DNA of 5,878 nucleotides, taken from Ferroglobus sp. (GTDB lineage: Archaea; Halobacteriota; Archaeoglobi; Archaeoglobales; Archaeoglobaceae). Both the position numbers and the translations under genes were made by a program. Position 1 is the first letter of the stretch. Each line of letters starts with the position of its first letter. The stretch lies in contig WAQS01000104.1 in assembly GCA_015520115.1 (NCBI GenBank), positions 1 through 5,878 of the forward strand, given 5' to 3'. Positions 1 through 5,225 of this stretch are shown piece after piece. The notes under the pieces were generated by a model. It made no database searches, was not told where the DNA came from, and saw nothing but the letters and a program-made list of their open reading frames with translations.

Positions 1-309
1 AGTTATAGCTCCTCCGGCTGCAAGCATTGCTATTTCGTACAGTCCTACTGGCACGTTTGTGTCGAAATCTATGAATCCTCCGGTTTTGCTTGCCCTTTTC
101 AGAAACTCTATGTACTCTTTCGTGTGCACTCTTAAGACGTCTTCTTCCTTCGCCGGCTCTGGATTAATGAGCACGATTCTCTCATCTTCGAAAATTCCCT
201 CTTCCGTTAGCTGGTCGATCGTGTAAGCTAACCTTTCCTTCCTTTCTGGATGGGTGGGTGTTTGTTCGTGCTTCAAATACTTCTCGTGAAAGACTATTCC
301 GGTCTTCAA
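1..309 (-). CDS. Histone deacetylase / acetylpolyamine amidohydrolase family protein (N-terminal part; runs off the window)
   Basis: This is the first 103 codons of a Zn-dependent deacetylase of the HDAC/AcuC/AphA superfamily. Family members remove acetyl groups from lysines, polyamines or small amides. Visible family signatures are an N-terminal GIVFHEKY strand, the HPERKERL motif (residues 20-27), VHTKEYIEFL (61-70), and a segment running from FDTNVPV (82-88) to LAAGGAI (96-102), which precedes the active site. The catalytic His pair and the zinc ligands lie beyond the window edge, so activity cannot be judged. The start is a TTG at 309-307. No ATG or GTG lies between it and an in-frame stop upstream, and a strong GGGAGGAG Shine-Dalgarno sits 5 bases before it (GGAGG core 7 bases before). 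The TTG overlaps the TGA of the upstream hydantoinase-family gene (TTGA), implying translational coupling. The natural substrate in this archaeon is unknown. Confidence 0.9.
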   Translation of the reverse strand, partial: MKTGIVFHEKYLKHEQTPTHPERKERLAYTIDQLTEEGIFEDERIVLINPEPAKEEDVLRVHTKEYIEFLKRASKTGGFIDFDTNVPVGLYEIAMLAAGGAIT

Positions 310-1790
310 GAAAACTCCTCCCTTATTCCTGGCTCTATCTGGACAATGACGTCAGCTATTTTTCCCCTCCTTATTCCACCCTTTACGACAACGTAAGAGT
401 TGAAGTACAGAACTCTGACGTCCTTTTCCTCTACCTCCTCACCGAAATCCTTCGCTATGGAAATTAGTTTGTCCACAGCGAGCTGTATTAACTCCTCATC
501 TTCGGGGAATCCGTATATTCTATCTTTAATGAAGGTTGCCTCCCCGTCGTAAACGGCGATTTTATTTTCTGTGTCAAATCTCGCATAGAGTGTGTAGCTC
601 AGCCTCGATACAGCCACTCCTACAGCGTTGGCTGATTCGCAATGTTCCGGGACGATGTACTTCACTCCAGCCTTCTTAGCTATGTCCTTTATCAAAAACG
701 GGGCGAGAAAGCCTGTTCCGATTATTTTCTCTGCTTTGAGTTCTTTAATCTTTTTGGCGACAATACTTATGAAATCCTCAACGGCTCTCTCGCAGTCGTC
801 TCTCTTTGCCTCTCTCGATTTTTTGTAGTCTCCTATTTCGTAACCGAGGCAGTTGAGAGCATCAGTTAGCGTGAAAGAGTTTCCTCCGAAGGATATCGGC
901 TGGGAAATTCTAACGGGTTTTATGGTTTCTTCAACGAGGCTGTCCCCTCCAAATGGAATTGAATGAGACTCTACACACCTCACGCAGCTTTTTAGTCCTC
1001 CTATGACCGCTCTCTCAATTATCTTTGGTTTTCCGTCTCCCAAGAAAACGAAGTCCGTCGTTGTCCCTCCGATGTCGACAACAAGTGCATACTTTTCTCC
1101 GGTAAGGAAGTAAGCCCCAAAAGCTACAGCGGCGGGACTTGAATTGTACAGCTCCGAAGGGTTGTTCAGGGCTATCTGGTAGGGGATAATCCCTCCATCT
1201 CCCTTATAAAAATAAACCTCGTTGTAATAAGCTTTGACGCTTTTTACCATCTCGTGAACTTTTTTCATGAGCTTTGCGTTTATAATTGTGGTGTTTATTC
1301 TCAGCGGGTAGTTCAAAACCGGTATGTGGTGACTCAACGCTATTTCGTCCTCGTTATAGTACTTTTTAGCGATTTCATAAGCTTTTAGCTCCAATTCCGG
1401 ATTTCTTATTGAGAACTTGCACGCTATAGCTAAGCAGTCCGCTTTGTTTTCCCTTAAAACCTCTTCTACCTCTCTCTCATCCAAATCTTCAACAACGTCT
1501 CCTCTGTGGTTTACCGCTCCTTTCAGCTGTTTTCCGTAACTTTCGTAATTTAACCCGCTACCGGGAAACAGCATAACTTGCGCCTTTATCTCATCGAACT
1601 TGGAAACTATGAGGTTTAGCGGAACAGATGTGCTGATTACCAACTTAATCTTCTTCTCTCCAACGAGTTCGGAAAGTTTTCTGAAAACAGCGTCAAAACC
1701 CAAATAGTTTGGAATTTTAGCGGTCTTTATTTCCTCCCCAATAACCGCTATATCTGTGTTCGTCCCGCCTATGTCGATGCCCACTCGCAT
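306..1790 (-). CDS. Hydantoinase/oxoprolinase-family protein (HyuA-like ATPase fold)
   Basis: This 494-residue protein has the actin/Hsp70/sugar-kinase ATPase fold of the HyuA (N-methylhydantoinase A / 5-oxoprolinase) family, which couples ATP hydrolysis to opening of cyclic amides. The N-terminal domain begins with the phosphate-binding GIDIGGTNTD (4-13). A second phosphate loop, VVDIGGTTTD, lies at 237-246, followed by IPFGGDSL (278-285). The adenosine-motif region includes GTGFLAPFL (358-366) and SANAVGVAVS (386-395). About 100 residues follow with no motif I recognise. At 494 residues it is shorter than bacterial HyuA (about 650-700), and no HyuB partner is visible. The ATG at 1790 puts the first GG loop at the usual distance from the N-terminus. 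It begins 6 bases after the PRC-barrel stop with no clear Shine-Dalgarno, and its stop overlaps the deacetylase start. The family call is firm. The substrate is unknown, and a role in archaeal cofactor or amide metabolism is only a guess. Confidence 0.87.
   Translation of the reverse strand: MRVGIDIGGTNTDIAVIGEEIKTAKIPNYLGFDAVFRKLSELVGEKKIKLVISTSVPLNLIVSKFDEIKAQVMLFPGSGLNYESYGKQLKGAVNHRGDVVEDLDEREVEEVLRENKADCLAIACKFSIRNPELELKAYEIAKKYYNEDEIALSHHIPVLNYPLRINTTIINAKLMKKVHEMVKSVKAYYNEVYFYKGDGGIIPYQIALNNPSELYNSSPAAVAFGAYFLTGEKYALVVDIGGTTTDFVFLGDGKPKIIERAVIGGLKSCVRCVESHSIPFGGDSLVEETIKPVRISQPISFGGNSFTLTDALNCLGYEIGDYKKSREAKRDDCERAVEDFISIVAKKIKELKAEKIIGTGFLAPFLIKDIAKKAGVKYIVPEHCESANAVGVAVSRLSYTLYARFDTENKIAVYDGEATFIKDRIYGFPEDEELIQLAVDKLISIAKDFGEEVEEKDVRVLYFNSYVVVKGGIRRGKIADVIVQIEPGIREEFS
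315..322 (-). promoter_or_regulatory. Strong Shine-Dalgarno for the TTG-started deacetylase gene
   Basis: Read on the minus strand, GGGAGGAG lies just before the TTG at 309, with a 7-base spacer from the GGAGG core. It lies inside the last codons of the upstream gene. It is what decides the non-ATG start of the deacetylase gene, because no other start codon is available in that frame. Confidence 0.8.
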
Positions 1791-2170: not shown

Positions 2171-2905
2171 ATGTTTGAACTCCTCATAAGCTTGGCGCTT
2201 GCGATGATAGCTTTGTACAATTCGGTTATGTACCTCCAGCTTACAGATGAAGAAAAAAGTTTTTTGGAAAGTAAGTGGAAGGACTCCTTGGTATTATCCA
2301 TTTTCATGATAGTAATTCTCTCTGTAATTTCCGTTCTCGAAATCCTGAAGCTTTATCAAATACTGGCGTTCGGAACTGTTGGAAACTTTTTAAGCGTGTA
2401 TACCGCTGTGGCTGTAATGCTTTTAATCCCCTCCGCATTCTTACTCCACGACATCCTATCGATAAAGGACTCCTTCAGGAATTTTGCTCCAAAAATAGAC
2501 CTTAAGGCTGTCTTGCTGGTACAAGGTTTTGCGGTTTTCTGGCTTTACCTGACTTTTATTGAGGAGAGATTTGCTCACGTTGTGTACTTGTTCTCTCAAT
2601 CTCTAAAAGCGATATTTATCGTGTCCTTGATACTGATTTTTTACGTTTCCTCTCTTCTATATAGATACTTTAAGTTGCTTAGGAGAGGAGACATCATCGT
2701 TCAGATCGACTTTTCTTCTTATCTATTCCAGCTGAGCGTTGCCATAGCTGTTTTCGGATTTTACATGCTCACGAGATCCACTTACTGCGGACAGGCGGTT
2801 TGTGCGGTTTTAATCGCATCTTTCGGAATTCTGCTAAACAACGCTTTATCTTCGCTCGGCAGAGCCCTGAAGCAGAACATCGGTGGTTACACCTTCGAAA
2901 TATAG
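2171..2905 (+). CDS. Unrecognised integral membrane protein, about seven helices
   Basis: I do not recognise a family. The 244-residue protein is very hydrophobic, with probable membrane segments near residues 3-22, 39-60, 72-94, 111-130, 144-164, 185-201 and 208-224. The linkers are short: a charged one at 25-38, a basic/acidic one at 97-110, and RYFKLLRRGD at 165-174. The positive charge of that last linker suggests it is cytoplasmic. Two cysteines (206 and 211) flank the start of the last helix. No catalytic, transport or kinase motif is evident, and the layout resembles a sensor-type seven-helix module without an output domain. The ATG at 2171 is supported by a TATA box centred 27 bases upstream. 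The gene is divergent from the PRC-barrel operon and its end overlaps the convergent thymidylate synthase-family gene by 19 bases. It appears to be transcribed alone, so the context gives no functional clue. Confidence 0.82.
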   Translation: MFELLISLALAMIALYNSVMYLQLTDEEKSFLESKWKDSLVLSIFMIVILSVISVLEILKLYQILAFGTVGNFLSVYTAVAVMLLIPSAFLLHDILSIKDSFRNFAPKIDLKAVLLVQGFAVFWLYLTFIEERFAHVVYLFSQSLKAIFIVSLILIFYVSSLLYRYFKLLRRGDIIVQIDFSSYLFQLSVAIAVFGFYMLTRSTYCGQAVCAVLIASFGILLNNALSSLGRALKQNIGGYTFEI

Positions 2906-4161
2906 GATGGAGTTTCGGGCTCAAGAATTTCTTTAACGCTATCTAAGAATTCCTCGTAGATGTGAGCATCTACCGAGAAATGATAGTACTTGTAATCTCT
3001 CTCGTTAATAAGCTGGGAAACGTAGTCCGTGAGGAGGGAGAAAGCGTACATGTTAGCGTGCATGGCTCCGAATATGTCATTTGAGCGCATGTAAAAGATT
3101 CCCATGAACTTTTTCGTCTTCAAAAACTGGTAGCCTCTCAAGCATGGCGGATCGTCGCTTGTTAAATCCCAAACCCTTGAAATTCCCACATAGCAGTCTC
3201 TTCTGTAGGGATTTTCCCTCAGCTTTTTTATACACTCGTAAAGCTGGTCGACTTTCTTCTCATCCCTTTCGCAGTATCTTGCTCTTTCAGCATACGTATA
3301 TTCCTCACCTTCTCTCAAAATTTTCTCCTTTACCGGCTTATCAAGCTGAGCCGCATGGATGACGTAGTTGTGGGCGTAGTCTATCGCGTATTTCTTCGTG
3401 AAAGGGGCTTTGTCGTGGATCTTGTTCTCTCTTGTGTTTTTCACCTCAACGAAAAGTCTGTGAACGAACTTACTCCTCTTTTGCCCTTCAAACAACTCAC
3501 CCCATTCCGTTTCCTTCTCGAATCCGTTGTAGTATATGACCTCAAGGGCTGAGTGCCATGCGGTGGATTCGTAGTCTTCCACTATATGAACTCCAAGTTC
3601 GTGAAAACCAAAAACATCTTTATAATTGTGCCTATCAACCCTGTCTAGATCTCTCTTGTAGATGTGGGGGGCTGCCACGAGAAAGGCAACGCTGCCTACT
3701 TCTATTTCAGCTCTTTTTGCTACCTCCTCAAGAACATGAAAAACGAAGTCGAAGTTTGCGGAGAAGTAGTTTAAAGCGTCTAAACTTCTTAAATAAGCTG
3801 TGGCGTGGAGAGAATTAAAGTAGTGGAGAAAACTAATTTCCGTAACTGTAGGAGGAGTTTCGCAGAAGTGGTCTTCCGGTCTCCAAACCGGGAGAGAAAC
3901 TCTTCTCGTGTAAGGGGTTTTTCTCAATTTTTCGGCAGCGGTTTCGATTAAATTTTCAACTCTGTCAAGATACGTGTCTTCGCAAGCTTTCCATCCGAAA
4001 CTTTCGTCAAAGCTTTGCATGTACGTTGGTTTTTCGCATATCACAAGCTCTGGCTCTATTCTAACCTCCTCACCGAACCTCGATTTAATTTCTACTCCTT
4101 CCCTCAAAATTTTTCCTATCAAACTCTTCTGGAGAGTCTCGGGATTAGCCTCGATTAACAT
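2887..4161 (-). CDS. Tandem-duplicated thymidylate synthase-family protein (second half with intact active site)
   Basis: This 424-residue protein has two thymidylate synthase (PF00303-like) halves, each about the size of the short archaeal enzymes (roughly 215 residues). The enzyme family methylates dUMP to dTMP. In the second half I see RRDCYVGIS (Arg320-321), PPC with the candidate nucleophile Cys340, YMRSND (Arg359, Asp362), Asn370 and HIY (His400, Tyr402). The steps RR-20-Cys, Arg-11-Asn, Asn-30-His are those of E. coli ThyA (R126/127, C146, R166, N177, H207, Y209). The first half repeats this with Arg86-87, LRSLD (Arg125, Asp128), Asn136 and HIY (His166, Tyr168), but has PPT (Thr105) instead of PPC. 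The start chosen is the ATG at 4161. A TTG at 4221 would add 20 residues but runs into the tRNA promoter. ATG 4161 has a TATA box centred 28 bases upstream and begins MLIEANPE, like archaeal ThyA N-termini. dCMP/dUMP hydroxymethylation is an alternative activity. Family confidence is high; exact function is inferred. Confidence 0.88.
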   Translation of the reverse strand: MLIEANPETLQKSLIGKILREGVEIKSRFGEEVRIEPELVICEKPTYMQSFDESFGWKACEDTYLDRVENLIETAAEKLRKTPYTRRVSLPVWRPEDHFCETPPTVTEISFLHYFNSLHATAYLRSLDALNYFSANFDFVFHVLEEVAKRAEIEVGSVAFLVAAPHIYKRDLDRVDRHNYKDVFGFHELGVHIVEDYESTAWHSALEVIYYNGFEKETEWGELFEGQKRSKFVHRLFVEVKNTRENKIHDKAPFTKKYAIDYAHNYVIHAAQLDKPVKEKILREGEEYTYAERARYCERDEKKVDQLYECIKKLRENPYRRDCYVGISRVWDLTSDDPPCLRGYQFLKTKKFMGIFYMRSNDIFGAMHANMYAFSLLTDYVSQLINERDYKYYHFSVDAHIYEEFLDSVKEILEPETPSYISKV

Positions 4162-4184
4162 CTCTTGAAAAGGAGTGTTGAAAC

Positions 4185-4194
4185 GAAATAAATG
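4185..4194 (-). promoter_or_regulatory. TATA box of the thymidylate synthase-family gene
   Basis: The minus strand reads CATTTATTTC, centred about 28 bases before the ATG at 4161. With no Shine-Dalgarno between it and the ATG, this fits a leaderless transcript. It supports that ATG over the upstream TTG at 4221, which would place this promoter inside the coding region. Confidence 0.5.
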
Positions 4195-4210
4195 TTGCGC
4201 AGCGAAAGCC

Positions 4211-4217
4211 TTATTAA
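4211..4217 (+). promoter_or_regulatory. Probable TATA box of the tRNA-Gly gene
   Basis: TTATTAA is centred about 31 bases before the first tRNA base at 4245, consistent with a TSS a few bases ahead of the mature 5' end. It lies back to back with the minus-strand promoter of the thymidylate synthase-family gene. Confidence 0.4.
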
Positions 4218-4244
4218 GCAACTTTCAAGGAAATAAAATTAAGA

Positions 4245-4318
4245 GCGCCGGTGGTGTAGCCTGGCTAACACAGGGGCTTGCCGAGCCCCTGCCCCGGGTT
4301 CAAATCCCGGCCGGCGCA
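4245..4318 (+). tRNA. tRNA-Gly (anticodon GCC)
   Basis: This is a complete cloverleaf of 74 bases. The acceptor stem is GCGCCGG (4245-4251) with CCGGCGC (4311-4317), followed by discriminator A4318. The D stem is GTGT/ACAC with a 10-base loop carrying GG (4263-4264). The anticodon stem is GGGGC/GCCCC with loop TTGCCGA, so the anticodon GCC is at 4280-4282 and decodes GGC and GGU. The variable region has 4 bases. The T stem is CCGGG/CCCGG with loop TTCAAAT. No intron is seen and CCA is not encoded, so it is added after transcription. G follows the anticodon at position 37. All stems are fully paired, so the gene should be functional. Confidence 0.98.
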
Positions 4319-4328
4319 CTCCCAGTTG

Positions 4329-4333
4329 TTTTT
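4329..4333 (+). terminator. Oligo-T terminator of the tRNA gene
   Basis: A run of five T (within TTGTTTTTG) begins 11 bases after the discriminator base. Short T-runs without a hairpin are the usual archaeal termination signal, so this probably ends the tRNA transcript. Confidence 0.5.
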
Positions 4334-4408
4334 GACCAAGTTTGGATCTTCTCGAAGCTTTATCTCCAAAAAAGCGGAGAGGTTTAATCTTTCATCGATA
4401 GTCGCTTG

Positions 4409-4455
4409 CCTTAGCCTAACACATTTTTCACTAAAAATCTCAGGCAGTTCTAAGG
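4409..4455 (+). repeat. Nested inverted repeat between tRNA-Gly and the toxin-antitoxin pair
   Basis: Three sets of arms nest inside one another: CCTTAG (4409-4414) with CTAAGG (4450-4455), CCT (4415-4417) with AGG (4442-4444), and a perfect ATTTTT (4423-4428) with AAAAAT (4433-4438) around a 4-base loop. The outer stem can be lengthened by G-T wobbles outward to 4406/4458. It lies about 110 bases before the antitoxin start, upstream of the proposed promoter. It could be an operator, a small structured RNA or a relic, and chance is not excluded. Confidence 0.4.
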
Positions 4456-4534
4456 TGATAACGAGGGTTATTGGAAAAGAAATGAGGTTGATAGGTGAAG
4501 TTCAGTGGGGCAATAGAACCCGCATAGAAGAAAC

Positions 4535-4544
4535 TCTTATTATT
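4535..4544 (+). promoter_or_regulatory. Possible TATA box of the toxin-antitoxin operon
   Basis: CTTATTATT and its surroundings are centred about 26 bases before the ATG at 4566, with a purine-rich GAAA just upstream. This spacing favours a leaderless antitoxin start at 4566 over the upstream ATG at 4482. Confidence 0.4.
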
Positions 4545-4565
4545 CCCTTGAACGACATCAGTATT

Positions 4566-4751
4566 ATGCCATTAACTCTTAAGGAATTAAGCGATAAGGT
4601 TGAAAGGATAGAGAGGTTTTTGAAGACGCTCATAGATGTAAATCTCGAACTTATTGAGGAGGTAGAGCCGGAAGAATGGGAAGTTAGAGACATTGAAGAT
4701 AGAAAGCGTGATGAATTCATAAGGTGGGAAGAGGTTCAGAATGAGTTATGA
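4566..4751 (+). CDS. RelB-like antitoxin of a type II toxin-antitoxin pair
   Basis: This small acidic 61-residue protein ends 11 bases inside the following RelE-type toxin gene. It has the form of archaeal RelB antitoxins: an N-terminal amphipathic helix (LTLKELSDKVERIERFLKTL, 3-22), a very acidic middle (EEVEPEEWEVRDIED, 31-45), and a C-terminal RKRDEFIRWEEV segment (46-57) resembling the conserved end of that group. By analogy it should wrap around and neutralise the toxin and repress its own operon. No DNA-binding fold can be seen directly. The frame is open back through the tRNA to 4278, with an ATG at 4482 as well. I chose 4566 because the protein then has the usual 50-70 residue length, a TATA-like element lies 26 bases before it, and the residues upstream do not look like the family. 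A start at 4482 would add 28 residues. Confidence 0.75.
   Translation: MPLTLKELSDKVERIERFLKTLIDVNLELIEEVEPEEWEVRDIEDRKRDEFIRWEEVQNEL
4731..4736 (+). promoter_or_regulatory. Shine-Dalgarno of the toxin gene
   Basis: GAGGTT lies inside the end of the antitoxin gene, with GAGGT 5 bases before the toxin ATG at 4741. It allows internal initiation on the shared mRNA and couples toxin translation to that of the antitoxin. Confidence 0.65.
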
Positions 4752-5007
4752 AAATCAAATTTTAATTTCGAAAAGAGCACTTAAAGAGCTTAAAAACATC
4801 CCCGAAAGTGACAGGAAAATTATCAAGGACAGGATTTCAAAGCTTGCGTATTTTCCCTTCGCTCACCTCGATGTTAAAAAGCTTAAAGGCCATGAGAACG
4901 TTTACAGGCTAAGATCTGGAAACTACAGAGTCATGTTTGAATATTTAAAAAATGGGAAGGTAATAAAAATCCTGAAAATCGGAAAGAGGTCGGACATTTA
5001 CGATTGA
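4741..5007 (+). CDS. RelE/ParE-superfamily toxin (archaeal RelE-like mRNA interferase)
   Basis: This 88-residue basic protein has the RelE fold layout. A first strand QILISKRA (6-13) is followed by two helices (KELKNIPESDRKIIKDRI, 15-32), then the core strands VYRLRSGNYRVMFEY (54-68) and VIKILKIGKRSDIYD (74-88). Likely functional basic residues, by analogy with RelE, are Lys46, Lys47 and Lys49, Arg56, Arg58, Arg63 and the C-terminal Arg83, with Tyr87 near the end. RelE proteins cut mRNA in the ribosomal A site. ParE relatives target gyrase instead, but the retained Lys/Arg set and the terminal KRSDIY favour RelE-like activity. The ATG at 4741 has a good Shine-Dalgarno and overlaps the antitoxin end by 11 bases, the usual antitoxin-first order. 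The toxin appears full length and intact. Confidence 0.9.
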   Translation: MSYENQILISKRALKELKNIPESDRKIIKDRISKLAYFPFAHLDVKKLKGHENVYRLRSGNYRVMFEYLKNGKVIKILKIGKRSDIYD

Positions 5008-5029
5008 AGAGACTCCGTTAACTTCTTCA

Positions 5030-5070
5030 GGCAACTCTTGAGCACAAGATTAACTTTTCCTCAAGCTGCC
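5030..5070. repeat. Imperfect inverted repeat after the toxin gene
   Basis: GGCA (5030-5033) and CTTGAG (5037-5042) pair with CTCAAG (5060-5065) and TGCC (5067-5070). This gives a 10-bp interrupted stem with a small asymmetric internal loop and a 17-base terminal loop. It starts 23 bases after the toxin stop. It may stabilise the 3' end of the toxin mRNA or be part of a small RNA. Confidence 0.4.
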
Positions 5071-5106
5071 ATGTTTCGTGGATTTCTGAAGGTAGCTTCA
5101 AGAATG

Positions 5107-5123
5107 AGGTACTTTACCTTTTT
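5107..5123 (+). terminator. Small hairpin plus T-run, possible end of the toxin-antitoxin transcript
   Basis: AGGTA (5107-5111) and TACCT (5115-5119) form a short perfect stem with a 3-base loop that runs directly into five T (5119-5123). It resembles an intrinsic terminator, though the stem is weak, and in archaea the T-run is the important part. A second run of six T at 5195-5200 is a backup candidate. Confidence 0.4.
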
Positions 5124-5135
5124 GCTCGGTCTTTG

Positions 5136-5171
5136 AGATTCTCTGAGAACATCCTTCAACTCTCAGAATCT
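5136..5171. repeat. Second imperfect inverted repeat in the gene-free stretch
   Basis: AGATTCT (5136-5142) and GAGA (5145-5148) pair with TCTC (5161-5164) and AGAATCT (5165-5171). The result is an 11-bp stem with a 2-base bulge and a 12-base loop. It lies between the two T-runs. Its role is unknown. Confidence 0.4.
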
Positions 5172-5194
5172 GTAATCTTCTAGCCTTTGTTTCG

Positions 5195-5200
5195 TTTTTT
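5195..5200 (+). terminator. T-run, probable archaeal terminator
   Basis: Six consecutive T in TTCGTTTTTTG lie about 190 bases after the toxin stop and well before the transporter promoter. They fit a hairpin-independent archaeal termination site for the upstream operon. Confidence 0.35.
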
Positions 5201-5225
5201 GTAAAGTGAGTAAACTACAAAACAA

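Follow-up and report, generated by a model that had tools for sequence, protein, structure and literature searches.

The window analysed here is a stretch of 5,878 nucleotides from the archaeon Ferroglobus sp. (GenBank assembly GCA_015520115.1, contig WAQS01000104.1), and it harbors on its minus strand, at positions 2887..4161, a gene for a fused tandem thymidylate synthase that we call P0001. The 424-residue product matches the thymidylate synthase family PF00303 in two stretches (7.3e-31), and its AlphaFold2 model reaches a predicted local distance difference test score (pLDDT) of 93.4 and a predicted template modeling score (pTM) of 0.93. The first half of the protein (residues 1-191; 3589..4161, minus strand) is a ThyA-type domain without the catalytic cysteine, a putative pseudoenzyme half. 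The second half (residues 192-424 plus the stop codon; 2887..3588, minus strand) is a ThyA-type domain predicted to be catalytic. Met is found at the start column in 103 of the 105 aligned proteins of the Archaeoglobales type, P0001 counted.

A preliminary description of this DNA, made from the letters alone, had proposed a tandem ThyA repeat. When residues 1-205 and 206-424 were scored separately against the hidden Markov model PF00303, whose curated cut-off is 24.3 bits, both halves exceeded it, with 40.2 bits (2.9e-10) for the first and 70.9 bits (1.2e-19) for the second. Because even the weaker, first half matches the family at E 2.9e-10, the repeat is not a matter of chance. The fold that such a repeat implies was found as well: comparison of each half with solved folds indicates that the predicted folds of both are like that of thymidylate synthase. 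Libraries of single-chain folds cannot show the docking of two domains, and whole-chain Foldseek rows with at least 440 columns were ignored, their root-mean-square deviation being above 20. On the alignment described below, the halves of P0001 differ in length: relative to the second, the first is shorter by 29 residues from the LVICEKP strand to Tyr64, and by 9 from Tyr64 to the arginine pair. Among NCBIfam models the best match for the whole protein (3e-39) is TIGR03283, an equivalog model for methanogen-type thymidylate synthase.

To compare active sites, we built an alignment from E. coli ThyA (K-12 record), 21 single-domain relatives and the two halves of each of 124 fused proteins. Of these fused proteins, 105, among them P0001, are of the Archaeoglobales type and 19 are of the Syntropharchaeia type; shorter pieces were not used. 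The column of the catalytic Cys146 separates the halves completely: all 124 second halves have Cys, and the first halves have Ala (104), Ser (16) or Thr (4) and never Cys. In P0001 this column holds Thr105 (3847..3849, minus strand, as are all codons given below) and Cys340 (3142..3144), as the preliminary description had read them. The other motifs are present twice. Arg125-Ser126 (3784..3789) and Arg359-Ser360 (3082..3087), the counterparts of R166-S167, and His166-x-Tyr168 (3658..3666) and His400-x-Tyr402 (2956..2964), the counterparts of H207/Y209, are each found in 124/124 proteins. The counterpart of N177 is Asn370 (3052..3054; Asn in 124/124) in the second half and Asn136 (3754..3756; Asn in 107/124) in the first, and the D169 column is likewise kept in 124/124 second halves and in 107/124 first halves (Asp128 in P0001). 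The spacings originally read from the sequence also hold: 11 residues for both R125-N136 and R359-N370, 30 from N to H and 2 from H to Y. They are those of E. coli ThyA, and the alignment pairs both halves with R166, N177, H207 and Y209.

A second asymmetry concerns the arginine pair that ThyA subunits exchange. In the E. coli enzyme, R126 and R127 of one subunit touch the phosphate of deoxyuridine monophosphate (dUMP) in the opposite site (PMC5981203), which is the role that the preliminary description had assigned to the double arginine. In a heterodimer of wild-type and R126E-R127E subunits, a single site is functional, and it lies within the mutant subunit (PMC5981203). Similarly, human R175, at the R126 position, reaches into the site of the partner, and the variants R175C and R175A are inactive (PMC6479699). 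The alignment places the R126/R127 counterparts at Arg86-Arg87 (3901..3906) in the first half, where they would be available for donation to the site of the second half, and at Arg321-Asp322 (3196..3201) in the second half, where the second arginine has been lost. The earlier proposal of a double arginine in each half was thus right for Arg86-Arg87; Arg320-Arg321 is literally present in the second half but lies one place off, the homologous pair being R321-D322. The register is supported by a constant distance from the R127 column to the Cys column, 19 residues in 124/124 first and 124/124 second halves (20 in E. coli), and this correction strengthens the hypothesis it amends. Conservation follows the same division. 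The first halves have the full pair in 124/124 proteins, and the R126 column is Arg in 124/124 of both halves. The R127 column of the second half contains Asp 101, Arg 14, Gln 4, Asn 2, Lys 2 and Thr 1, made up of Asp 101, Asn 2, Thr 1 and Arg 1 in the 105 Archaeoglobales-type proteins and of Arg 13, Gln 4 and Lys 2 in the 19 of the Syntropharchaeia type. As the half with the cysteine is also the half with the broken pair, only the cysteine-less half can supply both arginines in P0001. Asp322 itself might take the place of a phosphate next to Arg125.

Two further columns distinguish the halves. Glu108 (3838..3840), in the E. coli F149 column, is Glu in 124/124 first halves only; second halves have Gly 107, Ala 9, Ser 4 and Cys 4, and the 21 single-domain relatives have Leu 10, Val 5, Arg 3, Ile 2 and Ser 1. 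Human Y202 is an interface residue (PMC9831607), and because the Glu108 column lies four residues before it, strand alternation suggests that Glu108 should also face the interface. On this basis, its invariance would favor the pairing of a first half with a second half. Arg342 (3136..3138), two residues after Cys340 in the E. coli A148 column, is Arg in 124/124 second halves, in 0/124 first halves and in 1/21 single-domain relatives; it may take the place of the R21 arginine, which appears to be missing from the second half. A pairing of Glu108 with Arg342 across the interface was considered and dropped, as the two columns are neighbors and strand alternation turns Arg342 the other way.

Among about 5.8 billion database proteins searched, 109 relatives were found at E<=0.001. 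Of these, 104 have at least 400 residues, two are shorter pieces (P0017 and P0103), and P0108-P0110 are single-domain proteins. When the distant relative L066 served as the seed of a profile search, 22 matches reached 1e-10: 3 had already been found, 18 were further fused proteins, and the last was a single-domain protein. Where sources are named, the first set comes from Archaeoglobus, Geoglobus and Archaeoglobaceae/Archaeoglobales, and the second from Syntrophoarchaeum, Syntropharchaeia, Alkanophagales and a Methanocellales archaeon (one each). The source annotation of the fused proteins, where present, is nearly always 'thymidylate synthase'. In a sample of the phylum, 52 of 392 genomes had a match at 1e-30; 47 of these are among the 57 genomes of the order Archaeoglobales, and 5 belong to three other families. 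Among the 47, G026 shows the fusion only from residue 111 onwards, and in G048 it is divided between two contigs. A related-locus search among genome contigs returned nothing.

The distribution of the fusion was then set against that of ThyX and of separate ThyA in the 57 genomes of the order. Thirty-nine have the fusion only, 8 the fusion and ThyX, 7 ThyX only and 3 neither (Fisher 0.0018); these last three genomes have a completeness of 81, 72 and 54%. In a strict set of 42 genomes (at least 90% complete, at most 5% contaminated) the counts were 33, 3, 6 and 0, respectively (Fisher 1.6e-5), so that 6/6 well-covered genomes of the order in which the fusion is missing have ThyX. The 47 fusion genomes showed no separate ThyA at E<=0.001. 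In this survey of the order, which the preliminary description had proposed, the fusion occurs in 47/57 genomes, 39 of them without ThyX and none with a separate ThyA seen. The five Syntropharchaeia-type genomes with the fusion have neither separate ThyA nor ThyX, and no ThyX or other kind of ThyA is therefore found in 44/52 fusion genomes (39/47 plus 5/5). ThyX was not found in the genome of the window, which is 90.7% complete, nor in G001, a one-contig genome of the same genus. Some individual genomes deserve mention. G037 carries, on a separate contig, an additional 165-residue fragment of a second half of the fusion type. G030, an Archaeoglobaceae genome of the class with neither enzyme (72% complete, no fusion), harbors three different single-domain PF00303 frames (L074, L075 and L076) that are perhaps contamination or mobile elements. 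In the Syntropharchaeia-type L066, the fused gene (3783-5207) shares its last 8 bases with the start of a gene (5200-8514) for DP2, the large subunit of archaeal DNA polymerase D (PF03833, PF24844 and PF24846); the two may perhaps form an operon for thymidine monophosphate (dTMP) supply and replication.

The history of the two halves was examined with a tree built over 109 columns from 76 rows, which included 27 first and 27 second halves. All 27 first halves formed one clade (100/96), and so did all 27 second halves (99/99). The idea that the fusion arose independently in the two groups was discarded, as a tree that groups the Archaeoglobales-type halves together was rejected by the approximately unbiased test (p-AU 0.001, Archaeoglobales-type set). 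A single clade of all halves, as expected from one internal duplication, was not rejected (p 0.41, with 109 columns only); the free tree joins three single-domain proteins to the first halves, a weakly supported placement (82/47). Given the half-by-half clades, the fusion and the loss of the cysteine most simply predate the split of the two sets. The tree suggests that the cysteine was lost first, in the common ancestor of both archaeal groups, and that the second-half arginine was lost later, mostly to Asp. In a quick tree of the 124 proteins made with the trait columns removed, loss of the second arginine of the second half required at least 4 changes, and R87 and R321 none.

The first half evolves faster than the second. 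Its core identity is lower in 5397/5460 pairs of Archaeoglobales-type proteins, in 162/171 pairs of the Syntropharchaeia type and in 1983/1995 pairs between the sets. The first half is nonetheless under purifying selection: compared with G001, the first half has a ratio of non-synonymous to synonymous substitution rates (dN/dS) of 0.063 and the second one of 0.013, in a single pair with dS above 1 (two further pairs were saturated).

At the level of sequence, then, P0001 has two ThyA-type halves, a single predicted catalytic cysteine, an intact arginine pair in the first half and a broken one in the second. The interpretation that we consider probable is a single-chain thymidylate synthase in which the cysteine-less half docks as a pseudo-subunit and completes the sole active site with Arg86 and Arg87. 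The preliminary description had likewise suggested an enzyme and a pseudoenzyme in one chain, and it gains support from a Cys confined to the second half, and an intact arginine pair in the first half, in 124/124 proteins each. In such a mechanism, the first half would dock on the second within one chain in a ThyA-like manner; dUMP would be bound at Cys340, Arg359, Ser360, Asn370, His400 and Tyr402, with Arg86 and Arg87 also holding its phosphate in the Cys340 site; and dTMP would be formed with methylene-tetrahydromethanopterin or a similar carrier. These archaea use tetrahydromethanopterin. No dihydrofolate reductase (PF00186) was found in the genome of the window, with the control positive in 9/14 genomes; this absence fits a non-folate carrier and proves nothing. 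According to a 2022 paper on anaerobic methanotrophic archaea (PMC9012536), the cofactor used by methanogen-type ThyA is hard to predict.

Several observations weigh against this interpretation. The nearest solved folds of both halves are those of phage deoxycytidine monophosphate hydroxylase (9iqu and 9iqc), which rank above ThyA, and the cytidine monophosphate hydroxymethylase MilA also ranks above it, albeit less clearly. P0001 scores 134.6 bits with TIGR03283, under the cut-off of 174.55, and 5/5 further fused proteins tried were also under it (best, 152.2). Pfam is weak on the first half: it finds both halves in 44/47 fusion genomes, in 3 of these 44 with the first half under the cut-off, and only the second half in the remaining 3. 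ThyX accompanies the fusion in 8/47 fusion genomes, and the genomes with ThyX only come from two genera (g9 and g12), which implies few independent events. The full arginine pair is present in both halves of 13/19 Syntropharchaeia-type proteins, in which the asymmetry rests on the cysteine. The Lactobacillus casei enzyme is reported to keep some activity after single changes of the second arginine. In the fused proteins only this second arginine has been lost, with the R126 counterpart kept, while both were changed in the E. coli experiment (PMC5981203). Lastly, Y64, R125, S126, H166 and Y168 are found in 124/124 cysteine-less first halves and Asn136 in 107/124, and the strict conservation of the first five is the main fact that a simple scaffold does not explain.

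The residues kept in the cysteine-less half admit more than one explanation: they may hold a nucleotide, or they may now serve packing. The former would mean that the cysteine-less site, beyond being a scaffold and arginine donor, still binds dUMP, dTMP or thymidine triphosphate as a regulatory pocket. The five invariant residues speak for such a pocket, as do Asn136 and Asp128 (107 first halves) and the retention in 13/19 Syntropharchaeia-type proteins of both arginines that would reach into that site. The ThyA part before the Tyr64 counterpart carries folate contacts, and it is there that the first half of P0001 is 29 residues shorter. In addition, the second donated arginine is Asp in 101/105 Archaeoglobales-type proteins, and charge reversal of the pair, at both arginines, abolishes that site in E. 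coli (PMC5981203). All in all, we consider a regulatory pocket unlikely, if worth keeping in mind. A more specific version, that the dead fused subunit kept its nucleotide pocket as a built-in dUMP/dTMP sensor controlling how active the living site is, is less likely again; if true, it would be half-the-sites behavior made permanent and turned into regulation.

The site could also be completed between chains, in a domain-swapped dimer that joins the first half of one molecule to the second half of another. The asymmetry of the sequence asks for pairing of unlike halves and is blind to whether this occurs within or between chains. The single-chain model, however, has a pTM that should require confident mutual placement of its halves, and a domain swap appears distinctly improbable. 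A related nucleotide hydroxymethylase or hydroxylase, to which the fold ranking might point, is very improbable. An Asp at the N177 position goes with cytosine substrates, and the Asn370 column is invariably Asn; furthermore, ThyX occupies 6/6 well-covered genomes without the fusion, and 44/52 fusion genomes have neither ThyX nor another ThyA. Chance resemblance or a local frame artefact is ruled out by 104 database proteins of at least 400 residues that align end to end.

Just upstream of the fused gene and divergent from it lies a transfer RNA gene, tRNA-Gly (gcc), at 4245-4319 on the plus strand. A ParE-type toxin (PF05016, 4.2e-10) is encoded at 4741-5007 on the same strand, and the start of its gene is overlapped by the 3' end of an open reading frame (4278-4751, plus strand) without a Pfam match, perhaps the antitoxin. 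The true start of this frame lies further downstream, as the listed one sits within the tRNA gene. On the other side, a gene for a hydrophobic protein (2171-2905, plus strand) meets the fused gene tail to tail, its 3' end overlapping the final 19 bases of that gene; the protein matched no Pfam family above cut-off and no NCBIfam model. Further away, a 494-residue protein of the hydantoinase A/oxoprolinase type (306-1790, minus strand; PF01968 and PF05378) also matched MfnF and a model linked to tetrahydromethanopterin, both far below cut-off.

Thymidylate synthase works only as a homodimer, with two sites that the subunits share, and its half-the-sites reactivity is described as still debated (PMC5981203, PMC6479699); archaeal thymidylate synthases, according to another source, have had little experimental follow-up (PMC9931769). 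If our interpretation of P0001 is true, an enzyme and a pseudoenzyme have been joined in one chain in an essential archaeal pathway, and evolution has dismantled one site in the only thymidylate synthase recognised in 44/52 fusion genomes. The protein would then reveal the order in which a shared active site decays and, as an enzyme with one site and with halves that can be told apart, it would allow tests of how sites communicate. Titles and abstracts among the matches listed in a search of the open-access literature, with subscription journals mostly outside its scope, described no fused or natural one-site thymidylate synthase.

P0001 can be compared with several known systems. With homodimeric ThyA (PF00303; E. 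coli) it shares the predicted fold, the Cys/Arg-Ser/Asn/His-x-Tyr site and the arginine pair for the site of the partner; it differs in having two domains per chain, one of them without the cysteine, and unequal arginine pairs. As regards the TIGR03283 type, P0001 is without a His after the Cys, like the single-domain archaeal relatives aligned; the model describes one domain of 201 positions, and P0001, with two, stays under its cut-off. The tandem thymidine kinase of Trypanosoma brucei is a different enzyme, with a fold other than that of thymidylate synthase. It is alike in having homologous tandem domains, in being a monomeric pseudodimer and in serving thymidine nucleotide supply, and its inactive domain stabilises the protein and helps substrate binding (PMC9190010). 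In trypanosomatid deoxyhypusine synthase, an active subunit likewise depends on a catalytically dead relative, but the two are encoded by separate genes and form a heterotetramer (PMC3663545). Finally, in the engineered E. coli heterodimer of wild-type and R126E-R127E subunits the single site likewise lies in the subunit with the broken pair; unlike P0001, this heterodimer was made in the laboratory from two chains, neither of which loses its cysteine by the change, and it carries changes at both arginines (PMC5981203).
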